A DNA stretch of 33,812 bases from Candidatus Omnitrophota bacterium (GTDB taxonomy: Bacteria > Omnitrophota > Gorgyraeia > Zapsychrales > Fredricksoniimonadaceae). The translations under genes were made by a program, and so were the position numbers. Shown in pieces: positions 1 through 17,604 of the stretch. The stretch is from the NCBI GenBank assembly GCA_028865345.1, contig JAGWKL010000017.1, forward strand, positions 1 to 33,812. The letters run 5' to 3'. Below the pieces are notes generated by a model. It worked only from the letters and a program-made list of their open reading frames with translations. It had not been told where the DNA came from and did no database searches. Position 1 is the first letter of the stretch; every line of letters begins with the position of its first letter.

Positions 1-3000
1 TCACTCCAGTTGATCCCCGTCTTGCTCAACACTTGCAAGTCATTCCAGTTGAGCCCCGTCTTGCTCAACACTCCAAAGTCAGCCCAGTTGATCCCTGTGC
101 GGCCAAGCACATTGATATCAGCCCAGTTGATCCCTGTATTGCTCAACACGGATAAGTCATACCAATTAATGGAAGAATTGGTGAATACTCCAAAGTCCTG
201 CCAATTGATTCCCGAGCCGCTTAATACGGCCAGGTAGGACCAATTGACGCCGGCCTGGGTGAATACTTGCAGGGCCTGCCAGTTGATATTGGAATTTGTC
301 AGGCTTCCTAATGAAACCCAGTTGATCCCGGTCTTGGTCATTACTCCTAAATCACTCCAATTGATCCCTGTCTTGCTCAACACTTGCAAGTCATTCCAGT
401 TGATTCCTGTATTGCTCAATACTCCAAAATCGCTCCAGTTGATCCCGGTCTTGCCCAACACTCCAAAATCAGCCCAGTTGATCCCAGCCTTGCTCCACAC
501 TCCGAAATCATTCCAGTTGATGCCCGCCTTGCCCAACACGCCCCAATCGCTCCAGTTGATGCCCGTCGATGTAAATACCGCCATGTCCTGCCAGTTGATC
601 CCCGTCTTCGTCATCACCGCAAAGTCGCTCCAGTTGATACCCGCCTCAGACAGCGTGTTGATGTAACTGCCCAGATCCATCCAGTTGACGCCTGTCGTAG
701 ACAACACCCGGAAATCACTCCAGTTGACGCCCGTGCGGCTCAACACGTCCATATCATTCCAATTGATCCCGGTGTTGCTCAATACTCCAAGATCGCTCCA
801 GTTGATCCCTGTCTTGCTCAACACACCAAAATCGTTCCAGTTGATCCCCGTGCGGCTGACCACATTGATGTCATTCCAGTTGATCCCCGTGCGGCCAAGC
901 ACATTGATATCAGCCCAGTTGATCCCTGTATTGCTCAATACTCCAAAGTCACTCCAGTTGACCCCGGTCTTGGTAAATACCGCCATGTCTTCCCAATTGA
1001 TCCCCGTCCTCGTCATCACCGCAAAATCGCTCCAGTTGATCCCCGCCTCGGACAGTGTATTGATGTAGCTGCCCAAATCCATCCAGTTGATCCCCGTGGT
1101 CGACAAAATCCTAAAATCATTCCAGTTGATGCCCGTCTTGCTCCACACCGCCATGTCATCCCAATTGACACCGGCATTGCTCATCACTCCGAAGTCACTC
1201 CAGTTGATCCCTGTCTTGCTCAACACTCCAAAATCATTCCAGTTGATCCCCGTGCGGCTGATCACATTGATATCATTCCAGTTCAACCCTGCCTTGCTTA
1301 AGACCCCGAAATCATTCCAGTTGATCCCTGTCTTGCTCAACACTCCGAAGTCATTCCAGTTGAGCCCGGTCTTGCTCAACACTCCGAAATCACTCCAATT
1401 AATTCCTGCATGACCCAAAACATACAAATCATTCCAATTTAGACCAGCCTTGGTCAAAACCCCCAAATCATTCCAGTTGATCCCTGTCTTGCTCATTACT
1501 CCGAAGTCATTCCAATTGATCCCCGTGCGGCCAAGCACATTGATGTCAGCCCAGTTGATCCCTGTGCTGCTCAACACTCCCAAATCGCTCCAATTGATCC
1601 CTGTGTGGCCCAAAACATACAAATCATTCCAATTCAACCCCGTCTTGGTCAAAACCCCCAAATCATTCCAGTTGATCCCCGTATTACTCAAAACTCCTAA
1701 ATCACTCCAGTTGATCCCTGTGTGGCCCAAAACATACAAATCATTCCAATTCAGCCCCGCCTTGGTCAAAACCCCCAAATCATTCCAGTTGATCCCTGTC
1801 TTGCTCAAGACTCCAAAGTCATTCCAGTTGATCCCCGTGCGGCCAAGCACATTGATGTCAGCCCAGTTGATCCCTGTGTTGCTCAACACTCCCAAATCAC
1901 TCCAGTTGATCCCTGTGTGGCCCAAAACATACAAATCATTCCAATTCAGCCCTGCCTTGGTCAAAACTCCCAAATCACTCCAATTGATCCCTGTGTGGCC
2001 CAAAACATACAAATCATTCCAATTCAGCCCCGTCTTGGTCAAAACCCCCAAATCGTTCCAGTTGATCCCTGTCTTGCTCATCACGCCCAAATCGTTCCAG
2101 TTGATCCCTGTCTTGCTCATCACACCGAAGTCATTCCAATTAATGCCTGTATGGCTGACCAAATAAATATCATTCCAGTTCAGGCCCGCGCGGCTGAGCA
2201 CATTCAAATCGTACCAATTAATACCCGTCTTACTTAATATTCCGAAGTCCTCCCAGTTGATGCCTGTGGTGCTTAACACATCCAGGTCATTCCAGTTGAT
2301 TCCTGTATTGCTCAACACTCCAAAATCACTCCAGTTGATCCCGGTTTTACTCAACACTCCAAAATCACTCCAGTTGATCCCGGTTTTACTCAACACTCCA
2401 AAATCACTCCAATTGATCCCGGTTTTACTCAACACTCCAAAATCACTCCAGTTGATCCCGGTTTTACTCAACACTCCGAAATCATTCCAATTGATTCCGG
2501 TCGTGGTAAATACCGCCATGTCCTGCCAGTTGATCCCCGTCTTCGTCATCACCGCAAAATCGCTCCAGTTGATCCCCGCCTCGGAGAGCGTATTGATGTA
2601 GCTGCCCAGATCCATCCAGTTGATCCCGGTGGTCGACAATATCCTGAAATCATTCCAGTTGATCCCTGCCTTGCTCCACGTCGCAAAGTCACCCCAGTTG
2701 ACGCCCGCCTTGCTCAACACACCCAAATCACTCCAGTTGACGCCCGTCGCAGACAACACCTGGAAATTATTCCAGTTGATCCCTGTCTTGCTTAAGACTC
2801 CCAGGTCATTCCAATTGATCCCCGCTTTGCCCAAGACGCCGAAATCACTCCAATTGACCCCTGTCCTGGACAAGACATCCAAATCACCCCAGTTAATGCC
2901 TGTATTACTCAATACGCCAAAATCGCTCCAGTTGATCCCCGTCTTACTTAACACCCCGAAATCGCTCCAGTTGACGCCCGTCGCAGACAACACCTGGAAG

Positions 3001-6000
3001 TTATTCCAGTTGATCCCTGTCTTGCTTAATACCCCCAAATCATTCCAATTCACACCCGCATTGCTCATCACGCTGAAATTGTTCCAATTCACACCGGTCT
3101 TGGTCAATACGCTCAAATCGCTCCAATTCAAGCCCGTCTTGGTCATCACCGCCAGATCGCTCCAGTTGATCCCCGCTTCGGACAAGGTATTGACGAAACT
3201 GCCGATGTCCATCCAGTTGACCCCGACGGTCGTCAAGGTTTGAAAATCGCTCCAGTTGATGCCTGTGCGGCTCAAGGCGTTGAGGTCACTCCAATTGATC
3301 CCGGTGTTGCTCAAAACCCCCAAATCGCTCCAGTTGACTCCTGTCTTGCTTAAGACCCCGAAATCATTCCAATTGATCCCTGTTTTGCTTAAAACCTCAA
3401 AGTCATTCCAGTTGACGCCTGTCTTGCTCATGACCCCAAAATCAGCCCAATTGATCCCTGTTTTGCTTAAAACCTGCATATCATTCCAATTAATTCCCGT
3501 CTTGCTTAATACGCCCAGGTCAGACCAATTGATTGAGGAATTGGTAAACACCCCAAAGTCATTCCAATTGATCCCCGCAGAGCTTAATACGGCCAAATAG
3601 TTCCAGTTGATGCCGGCCTGAGTGAATAATTGCAGGGAATCCCAATTAACGCCTGAATTCGTCAAGATCTGGAAGGACGACCAATTGACCCCTATCCTGG
3701 TCATGACGCTCAGATCACTCCAGTTGATCCCTATCCTGCTCATCACCTCAAAATCATTCCAATTAATGCCCGTCTTGCTCAACACGCCGAAATCGTTCCA
3801 ATTGACACCCGTCTTGCTTAACACACCGAAATCAGCCCAGTTGATCCCTGTCTTTCCCAGCACGCCGAAATCAGCCCAATTGACACCCGTCTTGCTCAAA
3901 ACGTTGAGATCGTTCCAGTTGATCCCTGTCTTGCCCAGCACGCCGAGATCAGCCCAATTGATTCCCGTCGTGCTCAACACGGCAAAATCATTCCAATTGA
4001 TCCCTGTTCGGCTTACAACATTCAAATCATTCCAATTGACTCCCGTCGTGCTTAATACCGATATGTTAGACCAGTTGATGGAAGAATTGGTAAACACCGC
4101 AAAGTCCTGCCAATTGATCCCCGAAGAGCTTAATATGGCCAGATAATCCCAGTTGACACCGGCCTGAGTGAATATTTGCAGGGCCTCCCAGTTAACGTTG
4201 GAATTTGTCAGGCTTCCCATGGATGCCCAATTGATCCCGGTCTTGGTCATCACGCTCAGATCATCCCAGTTGATCCCGGCCTTGCTTAAGACCCCGAAAT
4301 TATTCCAGTTGATCCCAGCCTTACTCCACACTCCAAAATCGCTCCAGTTGATCCCTGTCTTGCTCAACACGCCAAAATCATTCCAGTTGACCCCGACCGT
4401 GCTCATGACCCCGAGGTCATTCCAATTAATACCCGCCTCGGAAAGGACAGCAAGGTCCGACCAATTAATATTCGACGATCCCCCGAGAGTGGACCCTATG
4501 ACCGCGGTCAAATTGGCCCAGTTGATCCCCCGGGTGGTTAAAACAGTCATGTCCTCCCAATTGACGCTTGCCGTACTCATTACCTCAAGATCGTCCCAAT
4601 TGACACCCGTCCTGCTCAACACCTCAAAGTCATTCCAGTTGATCCCCGCTTTGCCTAACACCCCGAAATCGCTCCAGTTGATGCCGGTCTTGCTCAACAC
4701 GCCGAAATCGTTCCAGTTGATGCCGGTCTTGCTCAACACGCCGAAATCGTTCCAGTTGACCCCTGTCCTGCTCAATACCCCCCAATCGCTCCAATTGATC
4801 CCCGTTGTGGTGAAAACCGCCATGTCCTGCCAATTGACCCCTGTCCTGGTCATCACCGCCAGATCGCTCCAGTTGATCCCCGCTTCGGACAAGGTGTTGA
4901 CGAAACTGCCGATGTCCATCCAGTTGACCCCGACGGTCGTCAATGATTGAAAATCGCTCCAGTTGATGCCCGTGCGGCTCAAGGCGTTCAAATCATTCCA
5001 GTTGATCCCTCTGGTGCTCATTACTCCCAAATCGCTCCAGTTGATCCCCGTCTTGCTTAAGACCCCAAAGTCGCTCCAATTGATCCCCGTCTTGCCTAAA
5101 ACGTTAAGATCGTTCCAATTGATCCCTGTCGTGGTTAATACGCCAAGGTCACTCCAATTGATCCCCGCCTTGCCCAGCACGCCGAAATCATTCCAGTTGA
5201 TCCCTGTGCGGCTTACAACATTCAAATCATTCCAATTGATCCCCGTCTTGGTCAATACGCCCAGGTCATTCCAATTGACCCCCGCCTTGCCCAACACGCC
5301 GAAATCAGCCCAGTTGATCCCTGTACGGCTTACAACATTCAAGTCATTCCAATTGATCCCCGTCGTGCTTAACACGCCAAGGTCATTCCAATTGACCCCT
5401 GCGTTACTCAACACCCCGAAATCGCTCCAATTGACACCGATCTTGGAGAATACGGCCAAATCGCTCCAATTCATGCCTGTCTTGGTCATCACCGCCAAAT
5501 CGCTCCAGTTGATCCCTGCTTCAGACAAGGTATTAAAGAAGCTGCCGATGTCCATCCAGTTGATCCCCACCGTTGTGAACACCTGGAAATCGCTCCAGTT
5601 GATGCCGGTCCTGGACCATACGTTGATATCATTCCAGTTAATGCCGGCATTGCTCATGACGCCCAGGCTGCTCCAATTGATCCCGGTGCGGCTTAAAACA
5701 TCAAAATCATTCCAATTGATTCCTGTATAACTTAAAACATGAAAATCATTCCAGTTGACCCCGGCCTTGGTCAACACGCCGAAATCATTCCAGTTGATGC
5801 CTGTACGGCTTAAAACATCAAAATCATTCCAATTCACCCCCGTACGGCTTAAGACATTAAAATCATTCCAATTGACCCCGGCCTTGGTCAACACCCCGAA
5901 ATCACTCCAGTTGACGCCTGATAAACTGATAGTATTAAGGCCGCTCCAATTGATTCCTGTATAAGTTAAAACGCGAAGATCATTCCAGTTGATGCCCGCC

Positions 6001-9000
6001 TTGGTCAGCACCCCGAAATCATTCCAGTTGATGCCTGTCTTGCTCAACACATTAAAATCATTCCAGTTGATCCCTGTACGGCTTAAAACATTAAGATCAT
6101 TCCAATTGACCCCAGCATTGCTCAACACCCCGAAATCGCTCCAGTTGACCCCTGTCTTGGTCATTACAGCCAGGTCTTCCCAGTTCAAACCATTTCTTGT
6201 CAGTATGGCCAAATCGCTCCAGTTGATCCCCGCCTCAGACAAGGTATTAAAGAAGCCGCCGATATCCGACCAGTTGATCGATGTGGTCGTCATCTGTTGA
6301 AGGTCAGACCAGTTGATGCCTGTGTGGCTCCAAACCTCCATATCATTCCAATTGATGCCCGCCTTGCTCATGACGCCAAAACTGCTCCAGTTGACGCCGG
6401 TGCGGCTCAAGACCTGCCAATCATTCCAGTTGATTCCCGTTTTGCTCCACACCGCAAAGTCAGCCCAGTTGATCCCGGCCTTGCCCAACACGCCAAGATC
6501 AGCCCAGTTGATCCCGGTTTTGCCCAACACGCCAAGATCAGCCCAGTTGATCCCCGTGGAACTTAAAACATTAAGATCGCTCCAATTAACGCCCGCCTTG
6601 GTCATCACCCCGAAATCATTCCAGTTGATCCCGTTTTTGCTTAATACGGTGAAATCATTCCAGTTGATGCCCACCGTGCTTATTCGATTCACATCATTCC
6701 AGTTGACGCCCTTGTTGGTCAGCACCGCAAAATCAGTCCAGTTAACGCCGGCATTGGCCATGATGTACAAACCCGTCCAATTGACCTGGCTTGTCTGGAG
6801 TTCGTTTATGGCCGTCCAATTGACCTGGGACAGGTTGGAAAAAGCCTCCCAATTGATCCCCTGGTGGGACAAAAGTTCGAAATCCAACCAGTTGACGCCG
6901 TTGGTCGTCATGACCCTTAAATCAAGCCAGTTGATGCCTATCTTTGTCATCACGGCCAGGTCGCTCCAATTGATCCCCGCTTCGGACAAGGTATTGATGT
7001 AGCTGCCCAGGTCAGACCAGTTGATCCCTGTCTTGCTCAACACGCCGAAGTCATTCCAGTTGATTCCCCTTGTCGACATCACCCCGAAATCGTTCCAGTT
7101 GATGCCTGCCGCGCTTAAGGTCTGGAGATTCTGCCAGTTCATGCCCGTGGTGGAAATGTTGGCCCAATATTGCCAGTTCACGCCTGCCCTGGTCATCACC
7201 GCAAAATCACTCCAGTTGATCCCTGCTTCGGAAAGCGTGTTGAAATAGCTTCCCAGATCCGACCAATTGATGCCTGTCCGCGTCAGGATGTTCAGATCAT
7301 TCCAGTTGATCCCTCTCGTCGACACTGTATACAGGTCATTCCAGTTGATCCCCGCCTTGGACAAAACCCCGAAATCACTCCAGTTGACCCCTGAGGCGCC
7401 TACCACGACCAGGGCCTGCCAATTGACATTGGCCGCACTCAGCGCGTTAATGCCGGCCCAATTGACCCCTGCTTTGGATAAAACACCGAGACCGGCCCAA
7501 TTGATGCCGTTCGTGCCCATCACTGCGAAGTCATTCCAATTAATACCGGTTTTGGTCATCACTGCCAAATCGCTCCAGTTGATCCCTGCTTCGGAAAGCG
7601 TGTTAAGGGAACCGCCCAAATTCGCCCAATTGATCCCTGAACGGCTTAAGACATTCAATCCGTTCCAGTTAATTCCCGTCTTACTTAAGACACCCATGTC
7701 AGCCCAATTGATCCCTGCCTTGCCCAAGACGCCAAAATCGTTCCAGTTGATGCCGGTCTTGCTCAAGACGTTGAAATCGCTCCAGTTGATGCCCGTCTTC
7801 CCTAATACTCCCAGGTCAGCCCAATTGAGGCCTGCCTTGCTCAGCACGCCGAAATCATTCCAGTTGATGCCTGCATAGCTCAAAGTGCGAAAATCATTCC
7901 AATTGATATTATTTTCAGACAGGACCGTCAAGTCGCTCCAGTTGACCCCCACCTGGCTCAAAGCCGCCAGGTCATACCAGTTGATCCCCTGGGACCAGAC
8001 CACACCGGCATGGGTCAAGACCTCAAAATCATACCAATTGACCCCCACCTTGCTGGAAACGGCCAGATCGTTCCAGTTGATCCCTGCCTTGGCCAATACG
8101 GCCAGGTCATTCCAGTTGACGCCCGTGTTGAAAAGCCTTTGCACATCGGCCCAGTTGACGCCTTTTTTGGTGAGCACTCCGAAATCGCTCCAGTTGATAC
8201 CCACGTTGGAAAGCACGTTCAAGTCCTGCCAGTTGATGCCATCGGCGGACATTTTGGCGATATCGCTCCAATTGACCCCGGCGTTGGTTTGCACCGCGAA
8301 ACTGTTCCAGTTGATGCCGTAGGAATTCGACAACTGAGTGAAATCGTAAATGCTGCTGACGCGCGTTTGGAGAACGCCGACGTCCTGCCAGTTGACGGTA
8401 TCGGTCTTGGCTTTAATGGCTGCTATATCCGCCCAGTTGATCTTATCGGTATTGGCCTTGATGACGCCGATGTCTTCCCAGTTGATGACATTGCCGTAGG
8501 AATCTTGAGTAATAATACCGGCGTTTCCGTTGAGGGCCAATGGGACGTCAGCTGTACAGGAGGCTGCCCCGCAAGGTGTCTGGCCGGTAACAGTTACTAC
8601 GGCGCTAAATCCATTGGCAAATGTAGCGCTGTTAAAAGCAGCTGGAGTCCAGACAGAAGTTGAAACGCACCAATTATTGGTATAGTTGGCAGTAAAGGCA
8701 GTTGAACCAAGGGTCGAGCCGTTCTGAGTCCCATCCGGATTATAAATAGCAACAGAACACTCATCGCCTGCATTTGTATTATCGGATGAAGCAAAAGGTT
8801 CGGCTTGATTATCATGGGCCACCCACACGTAGATGTAATACCCGCCTTTACCGCTATTGGCTCCGTTATCCCATACAGCCGAAGCTTGAGGGCCGGTACC
8901 GGGATTGATATTAAAGGTAGCTGAGACGCCCGGTGTCAAATTAGAAGATGTGGGTGATGTCGCTTGAAGGGTATATAATTGGCCGGCAGCTGTAATGCCC

Positions 9001-9482
9001 AAATTGGAAAATTGCGCCAATCCATTGACAACATTTACTGTAGCGGTACCCATCAAACCGCCATTGCCGGGATTGCTTAAAATCGTCACCGTCACCTGGT
9101 CCGTATTGTCATTGGCAACGATATTGCCGTAGGCATCTTCAACAGCCACCACCGGCTGGCGAGAGAACGGCTGCGAGTGATTGGTATCCGACGGGCTTAC
9201 AGTAAAGACCAGCTTGGCCGGCGTGCCGTAAGACAAGGTGCCGGTCGAGCCGGAAGTGGCATAGGGAGAATTGTTCTGTGCCCCGCCGTTGTAGATATCG
9301 CTGCCGATGGAGGATTCCGCGGGGTCGGTGGTTTCGTTGCCGCCGCTGTATTGGGCCCAGGCCGAAGAGAGAAAGGCGCTCCCAAAGAAAATCGCCCAAA
9401 AGGCAAAAATTTTCCATAGGCCGGGTCTTAGCTTCAATTTTAAAACCGTGTCTTTGTCAGGCATGCAATTCTTTTTTACCAT
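1..9482 (-). CDS. Giant exported repeat protein (3' end beyond window), 13-residue NW repeats
   Basis: I translated the start, the N-terminal region and samples of the repeats by hand; the frame (codons at + positions divisible by 3) is the same at 9464 and at base 3. No minus-strand ORF in this frame is listed in the track, as expected if it has no stop before the window edge, so at least 3160 codons are visible. Residues 1-43 are a Sec signal peptide (basic stretch KLKLRPGLWK, hydrophobic core, AWA|QY cleavage). Residues about 60-165 look like a bacterial Ig/invasin-type domain (VVAVEDAYGNIV), and about 170-320 form a second extracellular segment with four Cys. From about residue 331 the protein is only 13-residue repeats, consensus GINWNDFGVLSKT. 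I do not recognise the repeat as a named family. Start: ATG 9482 follows an in-frame stop by one codon; ATG 9464 is an equally good alternative. It is last in a compact run with the secretin genes. Probable surface protein or adhesin; fold unknown. Confidence 0.85.
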   Translation of the reverse strand, partial: MVKKNCMPDKDTVLKLKLRPGLWKIFAFWAIFFGSAFLSSAWAQYSGGNETTDPAESSIGSDIYNGGAQNNSPYATSGSTGTLSYGTPAKLVFTVSPSDTNHSQPFSRQPVVAVEDAYGNIVANDNTDQVTVTILSNPGNGGLMGTATVNVVNGLAQFSNLGITAAGQLYTLQATSPTSSNLTPGVSATFNINPGTGPQASAVWDNGANSGKGGYYIYVWVAHDNQAEPFASSDNTNAGDECSVAIYNPDGTQNGSTLGSTAFTANYTNNWCVSTSVWTPAAFNSATFANGFSAVVTVTGQTPCGAASCTADVPLALNGNAGIITQDSYGNVINWEDIGVIKANTDKINWADIAAIKAKTDTVNWQDVGVLQTRVSSIYDFTQLSNSYGINWNSFAVQTNAGVNWSDIAKMSADGINWQDLNVLSNVGINWSDFGVLTKKGVNWADVQRLFNTGVNWNDLAVLAKAGINWNDLAVSSKVGVNWYDFEVLTHAGVVWSQGINWYDLAALSQVGVNWSDLTVLSENNINWNDFRTLSYAGINWNDFGVLSKAGLNWADLGVLGKTGINWSDFNVLSKTGINWNDFGVLGKAGINWADMGVLSKTGINWNGLNVLSRSGINWANLGGSLNTLSEAGINWSDLAVMTKTGINWNDFAVMGTNGINWAGLGVLSKAGVNWAGINALSAANVNWQALVVVGASGVNWSDFGVLSKAGINWNDLYTVSTRGINWNDLNILTRTGINWSDLGSYFNTLSEAGINWSDFAVMTRAGVNWQYWANISTTGMNWQNLQTLSAAGINWNDFGVMSTRGINWNDFGVLSKTGINWSDLGSYINTLSEAGINWSDLAVMTKIGINWLDLRVMTTNGVNWLDFELLSHQGINWEAFSNLSQVNWTAINELQTSQVNWTGLYIMANAGVNWTDFAVLTNKGVNWNDVNRISTVGINWNDFTVLSKNGINWNDFGVMTKAGVNWSDLNVLSSTGINWADLGVLGKTGINWADLGVLGKAGINWADFAVWSKTGINWNDWQVLSRTGVNWSSFGVMSKAGINWNDMEVWSHTGINWSDLQQMTTTSINWSDIGGFFNTLSEAGINWSDLAILTRNGLNWEDLAVMTKTGVNWSDFGVLSNAGVNWNDLNVLSRTGINWNDFNVLSKTGINWNDFGVLTKAGINWNDLRVLTYTGINWSGLNTISLSGVNWSDFGVLTKAGVNWNDFNVLSRTGVNWNDFDVLSRTGINWNDFGVLTKAGVNWNDFHVLSYTGINWNDFDVLSRTGINWSSLGVMSNAGINWNDINVWSRTGINWSDFQVFTTVGINWMDIGSFFNTLSEAGINWSDLAVMTKTGMNWSDLAVFSKIGVNWSDFGVLSNAGVNWNDLGVLSTTGINWNDLNVVSRTGINWADFGVLGKAGVNWNDLGVLTKTGINWNDLNVVSRTGINWNDFGVLGKAGINWSDLGVLTTTGINWNDLNVLGKTGINWSDFGVLSKTGINWSDLGVMSTRGINWNDLNALSRTGINWSDFQSLTTVGVNWMDIGSFVNTLSEAGINWSDLAVMTRTGVNWQDMAVFTTTGINWSDWGVLSRTGVNWNDFGVLSKTGINWNDFGVLSKTGINWSDFGVLGKAGINWNDFEVLSRTGVNWDDLEVMSTASVNWEDMTVLTTRGINWANLTAVIGSTLGGSSNINWSDLAVLSEAGINWNDLGVMSTVGVNWNDFGVLSKTGINWSDFGVWSKAGINWNNFGVLSKAGINWDDLSVMTKTGINWASMGSLTNSNVNWEALQIFTQAGVNWDYLAILSSSGINWQDFAVFTNSSINWSNISVLSTTGVNWNDLNVVSRTGINWNDFAVLSTTGINWADLGVLGKTGINWNDLNVLSKTGVNWADFGVLGKTGINWADFGVLSKTGVNWNDFGVLSKTGINWNDFEVMSRIGINWSDLSVMTRIGVNWSSFQILTNSGVNWDSLQLFTQAGINWNYLAVLSSAGINWNDFGVFTNSSINWSDLGVLSKTGINWNDMQVLSKTGINWADFGVMSKTGVNWNDFEVLSKTGINWNDFGVLSKTGVNWSDLGVLSNTGINWSDLNALSRTGINWSDFQTLTTVGVNWMDIGSFVNTLSEAGINWSDLAVMTKTGLNWSDLSVLTKTGVNWNNFSVMSNAGVNWNDLGVLSKTGINWNNFQVLSATGVNWSDFGVLSKTGINWSDFGVLSNTGINWGDLDVLSRTGVNWSDFGVLGKAGINWNDLGVLSKTGINWNNFQVLSATGVNWSDLGVLSKAGVNWGDFATWSKAGINWNDFRILSTTGINWMDLGSYINTLSEAGINWSDFAVMTKTGINWQDMAVFTTTGINWNDFGVLSKTGINWSDFGVLSKTGINWSDFGVLSKTGINWSDFGVLSKTGINWSDFGVLSNTGINWNDLDVLSTTGINWEDFGILSKTGINWYDLNVLSRAGLNWNDIYLVSHTGINWNDFGVMSKTGINWNDLGVMSKTGINWNDLGVLTKTGLNWNDLYVLGHTGINWSDLGVLTKAGLNWNDLYVLGHTGINWSDLGVLSNTGINWADINVLGRTGINWNDFGVLSKTGINWNDLGVLTKAGLNWNDLYVLGHTGINWSDLGVLSNTGINWNDLGVLTKTGLNWNDLYVLGHTGINWSDLGVLSSTGINWADINVLGRTGINWNDFGVMSKTGINWNDLGVLTKAGLNWNDLYVLGHAGINWSDFGVLSKTGLNWNDFGVLSKTGINWNDFGVLSKAGLNWNDINVISRTGINWNDFGVLSKTGINWSDFGVMSNAGVNWDDMAVWSKTGINWNDFRILSTTGINWMDLGSYINTLSEAGINWSDFAVMTRTGINWEDMAVFTKTGVNWSDFGVLSNTGINWADINVLGRTGINWNDINVVSRTGINWNDFGVLSKTGINWSDLGVLSNTGINWNDMDVLSRTGVNWSDFRVLSTTGVNWMDLGSYINTLSEAGINWSDFAVMTKTGINWQDMAVFTSTGINWSDWGVLGKAGINWNDFGVWSKAGINWADFGVLGKTGINWSDFGVLSNTGINWNDLQVLSKTGINWSDLGVMTKTGINWVSLGSLTNSNINWQALQVFTQAGVNWSYLAVLSGSGINWQDFGVFTNSSINWYDLSVLSNTGINWADINVLGRTGINWADFGVLSKTGLNWNDLQVLSKTGINWS
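1602..2070 (-). repeat. Recently amplified 78/117-bp block inside the array
   Basis: The string ctgtgtggcccaaaacatac recurs near 1602, 1718, 1912 and 1990, that is at multiples of 39 bp, each time followed by a near-identical LTKAGLNW-coding unit. It encodes alternating NWNDLYVLGHTGI and NWSDLGVLTKAGL units. Near identity at the nucleotide level, including synonymous sites, indicates duplication of two- or three-unit blocks more recent than the rest of the array. Confidence 0.75.
2335..2490 (-). repeat. Four near-identical consecutive 39-bp units
   Basis: Units starting at 2335, 2374, 2413 and 2452 all begin ttgatcccggttttactcaa. The first three differ only at the last base and the fourth at three positions. 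This is the most homogeneous patch I found in the array and looks like a fresh slippage or unequal-crossover expansion. Confidence 0.8.
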
Positions 9483-15961: not shown

Positions 15962-16960
15962 TTAAGAAATCTTTTCCTTCTTCCCAGGCAGGAAGATCAA
16001 AATCCCCGTCGAGAAACCGGCCAGGCGCGCCAGGGCCCGCAGGAACATCACGCCACCGTATAAAATCCCTTCAAAAAAAAGCCGCGTCATCATCCATGCG
16101 CAAAAAATTTCAAAAAACAGGAAGGACAAGGCCGCCCAACAAACCATGCCCATATATATAAAATTGAAACCCGCGCTTAAGACTGCCCCCGCAGCCAGAA
16201 AGGCCGCCCAGGGTATTTCGATCATGTCCTTCCAGTAGGTATACCCGTCCCCGCGCATCATGGCGGGGTGGTCTTTGTACATCTTCAGGCGCCAGAAGCC
16301 GTGCCGGAATTGTTCCTTCAGATATTTGGACAGGATTTGCGGGTGGTAATGGTCCACCAGAGCCATGCGTTGAAAATAAATCCGTTGGCCCGAACGGATG
16401 ATCTTATAACTTAAGTCATTGTCCTCCCCGCTGGCATGGCGGTATGCTGTATTGAACCCCCCCACCGCCTCAAAAACATCTTTTCTGGCGCAAAAGTTAT
16501 AACTGCCGAAGGAGTTGGGAAAATCCGGCATCAAATGGGTATGGCGCCAAAGGATCTCTTTGTACACACACCGGGCCAGTAGGCTTTGGGGGTTGGCGAT
16601 CCCGTAACTTCCCGCCACAACGCCCGTTTGCGCGCGCTTCAAACCCTCCATCAACAAAGAGATCCAGTCCTCGTGCGGGACACAGTCGGAATCCGTAAAG
16701 GCGAGATAAGCGCCCCGGGCGAGCCGGGCGCCGTGATTGCGCGCCGCGGCAGGGCCGGCGTTGTCCTGGCGCGCGTATTTGACCGACGAAAACGAGCGGA
16801 CGATGTCTGCCGTGTTGTCGCGGGAACCGTCATCCACGACGATCACCTCGAAGGGCTGGGAACATTTTTGCCGGGACAGCGCTTCCAGAGTCCGGCCGAT
16901 CGTGGCCGAGGCGTTGTAAGCAGGAACTATAACACTGACGGTTACATCCGTTACAGACAT
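15962..16960 (-). CDS. Glycosyltransferase family 2, membrane-anchored
   Basis: 332 residues from ATG 16960 (343 from ATG 16993). The GT-A fold begins at once with VSVIVPAYNASATIGRTLEA and VIVVDDGSRDNT; the metal-binding DxD is FTDSDCVPHEDW, and the acceptor-side acidic motif is ASGEDNDLSYKI. Two or three membrane spans follow in the last ~90 residues (WAAFLAAGAVLSAGFNFIYM, then VCWAALSFLFFEIFCAWMM), so the enzyme sits on the inner membrane and probably adds a sugar to a lipid-linked or surface glycan. I prefer ATG 16960 because the extra N-terminal MSVFAGMTMKE is translated from a dispersed repeat half (gcgggcatgaca) and adds nothing to the domain. It is preceded by the 241-bp palindromic element. 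Confidence 0.88.
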   Translation of the reverse strand: MSVTDVTVSVIVPAYNASATIGRTLEALSRQKCSQPFEVIVVDDGSRDNTADIVRSFSSVKYARQDNAGPAAARNHGARLARGAYLAFTDSDCVPHEDWISLLMEGLKRAQTGVVAGSYGIANPQSLLARCVYKEILWRHTHLMPDFPNSFGSYNFCARKDVFEAVGGFNTAYRHASGEDNDLSYKIIRSGQRIYFQRMALVDHYHPQILSKYLKEQFRHGFWRLKMYKDHPAMMRGDGYTYWKDMIEIPWAAFLAAGAVLSAGFNFIYMGMVCWAALSFLFFEIFCAWMMTRLFFEGILYGGVMFLRALARLAGFSTGILIFLPGKKEKIS

Positions 16961-17007
16961 TTCTTTCATTGTCATGCCCGCGAAAACAGACATCCAAAGG
17001 TGTTAAT

Positions 17008-17248
17008 GACGGGATAGGTTCGTCTTTTGGCGAGGAGTAAGTTTTTTAGCCAAAGCAACTCATGGCTTGAAGGGCAGCCCGAGGCTTTTGGCCGAGGGCT
17101 GGCCAAACCTGTTCGAGCTTTGAAGCTCCAGAGAGCTTCAAAGCGAGTTGTTTGGCCACCTTCGAGCCATGAGGCCTTTGGCGGCCCCGCCGCAGGCGGG
17201 GCAAAAAACGAGCGAAGCCTCCTCGCCAAAAGACAAACCTATCCCGTC
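17008..17248. mobile_element. MITE-like 241-bp palindromic element
   Basis: Thirty-bp terminal inverted repeats (17008-17037 and 17219-17248) match at 29 of 30 positions, starting gacgggataggtt. Inside are nested inverted repeats: gccaaagcaactcatggctt against ccttcgagccatgaggcctt (about 17049-17182), tggccaaac/gtttggcca (17100-17108, 17149-17157), a central gctttgaagc/gcttcaaag stem, and a gccccgcc/ggcggggc hairpin near 17183-17201. The whole element folds into one long imperfect hairpin. It lies exactly between the DUF2304 stop (17251) and the downstream glycosyltransferase start, and has no convincing ORF. Non-autonomous transposon or structured RNA repeat; no transposase is nearby. Confidence 0.65.
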
Positions 17249-17250
17249 GT

Positions 17251-17604
17251 TTATTTCTCGGATTTCTTTTTCAATTCCTTCAGCTCGAATTCCAGCAACG
17301 CGATTTTCTGGGCCATCAGGTCGTTTCTGATATTTTGCTGGCACAAAAACACCGTCATTACAAGGCTTAAGAACACAAACACGCAAAACAACGTGAAGAA
17401 AATGAAGTTGCTGGGCAGTTCAAACCCGAAAAAATCGGCGCAGGCAAAGATCAACCGGTAAAAGACCGCGAAAAAAATCCCGACCGCGGAAACCGAAAGC
17501 CAGCCCACCGCGTACTTGAACGTCAACCGGCGCCGGCGCACCAGATCTATGACGAACAAGAAAACGGCCACTGAAACAAGGAACGCCACCAGATGAATGT
17601 TCAT
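17251..17604 (-). CDS. DUF2304 family membrane protein
   Basis: 117 residues with three hydrophobic segments: about 3-22 (VAFLVSVAVFLFVIDLV), 33-57 (YAVGWLSVSAVGIFFAVFYRLI) and 67-88 (IFFTLFCVFVFLSLVMTVFL), then a short charged coiled-coil tail (IALLEFELKELKKKSEK). Size, topology and the early F-K-Y-A-x-G-W-L-x-x-S pattern match DUF2304. Members commonly sit next to a DPM1-like GT2 gene, as here, where the two overlap by 4 bp. The role is unknown; partnering the glycosyltransferase at the membrane is the usual guess. Confidence 0.82.
   Translation of the reverse strand: MNIHLVAFLVSVAVFLFVIDLVRRRRLTFKYAVGWLSVSAVGIFFAVFYRLIFACADFFGFELPSNFIFFTLFCVFVFLSLVMTVFLCQQNIRNDLMAQKIALLEFELKELKKKSEK

Follow-up and report, generated by a model that had tools for sequence, protein, structure and literature searches.

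What is the long palindrome that fills the spacer between two genes of an Omnitrophota MAG, and how did it come to be there? The window, by which we mean the whole 33,812-nucleotide stretch of DNA analysed, contains at 17005–17251 a near-perfect nested palindrome that is far above chance and slightly longer than the sequence-only reading had claimed. The 247-base element, given here on the plus strand in the orientation of its covariance model, begins and ends in terminal inverted repeats of 33 nt each (17005–17037 and 17219–17251, 94% complementary); the shorter 30-bp arms first proposed match each other as inverted copies at 97%. A related form of the left end motif, GGGATAAATTTGTTCTT, is found again at other copies, and the right repeat touches, at its outer end, the stop codon with which the DUF2304 gene finishes. 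Further inverted repeats lie inside (17059–17073 with 17159–17173, and 17117–17128 with 17133–17144), and the one very long RNA hairpin that had been predicted is borne out by a minimum free energy of -159.5 kcal/mol, whereas 200 shuffled sequences gave -86.2 ± 5.3 (z -13.9). The conserved structured core (17044–17208, plus strand) matches the covariance model R1 at 134.9 bits. By folding and stem covariation it contains an inner hairpin with the internal loop C-GA-G / C-GA-G (17076–17100), and by folding, alignment and covariation an apical hairpin (17101–17157) with the conserved internal loop GTTCGAG / GCGAGTTGTT, a fast-changing covarying stem and a CAGA loop. Folding and alignment also place an additional GC-rich hairpin at 17184–17202, which is present in some copies only, others having GGCGTTAAAAAA.

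The element fills the spacer between a glycosyltransferase family 2 gene (15962–16993) and the DUF2304 gene (17251–17604); both are on the minus strand, which makes read-through transcription of the element plausible. Their earlier description as cell-surface genes is only loosely right. The claim that the palindrome has no ORF of its own is literally untrue, since a 144-codon plus-strand ORF crosses it, though nothing indicates coding. Elsewhere in the window, a single minus-strand ORF of at least 3160 codons (3–9482) consists mostly of 39-bp (13-residue) repeats and runs off the contig end. We consider that the window element probably belongs, as one of many copies, to a family of mobile palindromic elements of Omnitrophota that are non-coding and non-autonomous, here called family 1, and hold with still greater confidence that family 1 itself is a mobile structured repeat.

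The element is multicopy both in its own genome and across the genus. The own genome has about a dozen related stretches, and its count is put at about 11 family 1 copies plus core-deleted remnants: the covariance model R1, which covers the inner 147 nt, gives 12 matches there, two of which (contigs C53 and C57, both at contig ends) probably represent one locus as their flanks are in common, and two more copies are without the core. Family 1 is present in all seven genomes of the genus and, judged by R1 matches, in 55 of 384 Omnitrophota genomes, where it is patchy and often multicopy. The named matches to the core pattern are Candidatus Omnitrophota MAGs. Carriage by phages or by other phyla was considered and rejected, pattern matches in viral contigs and outside the phylum being due to chance, none of which R1 matches at E below 1. 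No Rfam covariance model matched family 1, and no earlier description of palindromic repeats of Omnitrophota was found in the literature searched. Bacterial palindromic repeats are usually described within one genus or family. Copies often lie at contig ends (C42, C53, C54 and C57 of the own genome, G000; C22 and C40 of G003; C1 of G006), so assemblies probably break at the palindromes and real copy numbers are likely to be higher. Most of 45 copies sit between tandem genes, to which 23 are antisense and 11 sense. Terminal sequences vary between copies and species; the idea that the terminal stems are locus-specific inverted repeats of the target found no support in G005 and G183, where different loci have the same ends. 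A core-less copy (L014/L139) had raised the idea of a core nested into an outer element, for which a deletion between GCA direct repeats is the simpler account. In addition, a small hairpin module, GCTGAGCAAAAAACAGGGRATCT, substitutes for or lengthens differing element hairpins across copies and species (L010, L011, L060, L004).

Evidence for mobility comes from orthologous spacers. All four loci tested have an empty orthologous spacer in one or more sister species; family 1 copies are therefore insertions. At the window locus only a few bases separate the same two genes in G003, G002 and G004, while the spacer is occupied in G001 by a different palindrome (family 3) and in G005 by family 1 in reversed orientation. 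A second locus (L137) is empty in G001, G002 and G006, and a third (L138) is empty in G004 and G002, holds a core-deleted remnant in reversed orientation in G003 and another palindrome in G005. At the fourth (L143, 3989–4993), family 1 interrupts the signal peptide of a secreted protein without breaking the frame, following ATGAAGAAG and separating MKK from the hydrophobic part; the ORF is open throughout the inserted element, and orthologues of the protein in G003, G001 and G002 are without it. In-frame coding was nevertheless rejected as a design property of the family, as none of the frames is free of stops in more than 13 of 74 copies. G281 provides a further case, two copies that agree at 99% over 214 bp yet are inverted relative to flanks that are 88% identical. 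That the same spacers are hit repeatedly in different species suggests preferred sites, though the comparison covers only four loci. Recent movement within a single species was not caught. The prospect of a single-copy palindrome with no empty site, which the sequence-only reading had set against itself, thus falls away, given the multiple copies and the empty orthologous sites.

Could these insertions be those of an ordinary MITE, that is, an internally deleted insertion sequence moved by its DDE transposase via the terminal inverted repeats? Family 1 is, as a MITE is, short, non-coding and bounded by terminal inverted repeats, and its intergenic position fits as well. However, the target-site duplication that had been proposed as a check was absent, no direct repeat of three or more bases occurring at a consistent offset among 58 copies; the ends differ between copies and species; those stray ends in the own genome that were inspected enclose no transposase gene; and the interior is conserved better than the ends. 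We therefore regard an ordinary MITE as unlikely. The original suggestion of a MITE or a structured repeat family not tied to a transposase accordingly survives in its second half, as far as tested, but not as a strict MITE, neither target-site duplication nor cognate transposase having been found.

The fold of family 1 is strongly constrained. Among 19 aligned copies, 27 of 36 consensus pairs show compensatory changes. Among 30 extra-genus copies found by R1, double compensatory changes affect 30 of the 36 pairs and 95.2% of cells are paired, and the covariation score is 0.516 against 0.141 for shuffled and at most 0.091 for slid controls, in which pairing drops to 34–46%; this alignment was fitted to R1, which favors structure, but the effect is nevertheless far above the controls. 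Conservation of this kind could point to an RNA function under selection, in a structured RNA gene or a cis-regulatory RNA that was duplicated by chance, and the very strong covariation and conserved loop residues are what such a gene would show. So too is the finding that single mismatches on the model strand are more often G.U than A.C (40 vs. 16 distinct contexts, p 0.0009), with the caveat that these contexts come from related copies and are not fully independent. However, stems switch from C-G through U-A to G-C with G-U in only 7 of about 890 paired cells (hand count, one conserved U.G pair excluded), a turnover that fits correction from the opposite arm. Copies face either way relative to genes, which speaks against a fixed regulatory RNA; presence is patchy with species-specific positions, no promoter-like site was found in the window region of the element, and core-deleted copies persist. 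An RNA gene is therefore very improbable in our judgment, and family 1 illustrates why covariation alone is no proof of one. We read the G.U excess instead as pointing to one functional strand that is recognized folded, be it RNA or single-stranded DNA, and because G-U intermediates are scarce this asymmetry supports a folded single strand only moderately.

How, then, might a mobile structured repeat of this type move? REP elements and IS200/IS605-type single-strand transposition combine palindromic form with the lack of a target-site duplication. As family 1 resembles them in both respects, movement through a folded strand is the mechanism that we prefer, tentatively and at less than even confidence. 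By analogy with REP/REPIN elements, an enzyme acting in trans would move the copies and would recognize the folded single strand, perhaps by its hairpin ends and conserved G.A-rich internal loops; such an enzyme would be absent from the own genome or unrecognized in it. Complementarity of the arms could be kept by quasi-palindrome correction, in which a mismatch is repaired from the opposite arm at replication, with selection for the folded strand acting alongside. A copy inserted between co-transcribed genes would give their operon mRNA a very long hairpin, which is probably an RNase III-type site of processing or stability and would be a by-product, not the cause, of spread. As to the enzyme, Y1 transposases (PF01797) do not co-occur with the element, being found in 46 of the 55 genomes with it and in 250 of the 329 without it (hand count); none was found in the carrier G029 or in the own genome, although the latter has copies, and two Y1 genes of the carrier G157 are flanked by other, unrelated repeats. 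A Y1/RAYT enzyme was hence rejected as the mobilizer, as it does not track the element. In a single case (G130), about 120 bases separate a minus-strand Y1 transposase gene (L166, 3584–3955) from a copy of family 1.

Compared with known systems, family 1 is best read as a new family, with REPIN-, ERIC- and MITE-like behavior but departing from each in a defining property. REP/REPIN elements are recognized as a folded strand by the RAYT (TnpA-REP) transposase (PMC3116915, PMC8266576). Family 1 shares with them intergenic imperfect palindromes that are multicopy, non-autonomous, inserted in both orientations and arranged in mosaic clusters, but has a much longer multi-hairpin fold, about ten copies and not hundreds, and no Y1 transposase found in its own genome or co-occurring with it; folded-strand recognition, known for REP/REPIN, is a proposal for family 1. 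ERIC, Correia/NEMIS, YPAL and other enterobacterial and neisserial MITE-like repeats are likewise about 100–250 bp long and non-coding, form long hairpins in operon transcripts, and show filled and empty sites and occasional in-frame fusions (PMC2229807, PMC10969869). Family 1 differs in having no TA or other target-site duplication, and in its phylum-wide range and conserved multi-hairpin interior. The Rickettsia palindromic elements (RPE) insert in frame in protein genes (PMC10969869), as family 1 does in one clear case (L143), whereas nearly all family 1 copies are intergenic and no frame is regularly free of stops. A multi-hairpin fold of about 150 nt is thus kept phylum-wide despite stem turnover, while empty sites are clean and no transposase is apparent, and family 1 is a good system in which to study how repeats without a transposase persist and how palindrome arms co-evolve at the DNA level.

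Several palindromic families make up a mosaic to which family 1 belongs, and one of them, family 3, is likewise phylum-wide. The model for family 3 (R2), built from four sequences, finds it in 38 of 384 Omnitrophota genomes at E ≤ 1e-4, and distant copies keep the conserved loop residues. Copies in the own genome include G000:C21:42600–42748 (L243), C21:25367–25525 (L242) and C41:41534–41691 (L133). Family 3 is sometimes nested in, or adjoins, family 1. Of seven distinct R2 matches in family 1 loci, six adjoin the family 1 copy on its 5′ side, and each of these six is on the strand opposite to it; as the loci were selected for family 1, it is the constancy of side and strand, not the frequency, that carries information. 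C-GA-G/C-GA-G internal loops occur in the folds of both families. It is conceivable, though doubtful, that families 1 and 3, and perhaps more, form a guild of structured hairpin elements with a common tandem G.A loop signature, adjoining in a fixed arrangement and moved by one enzyme of the phylum that recognizes the folded strand. Further long palindromes in the genus, apparently unrelated, were also seen, namely family 2 (L140, L234) and families 4 and 5 (L185, L267; G005), some of which occupy the exact spacers that hold family 1 in other species.
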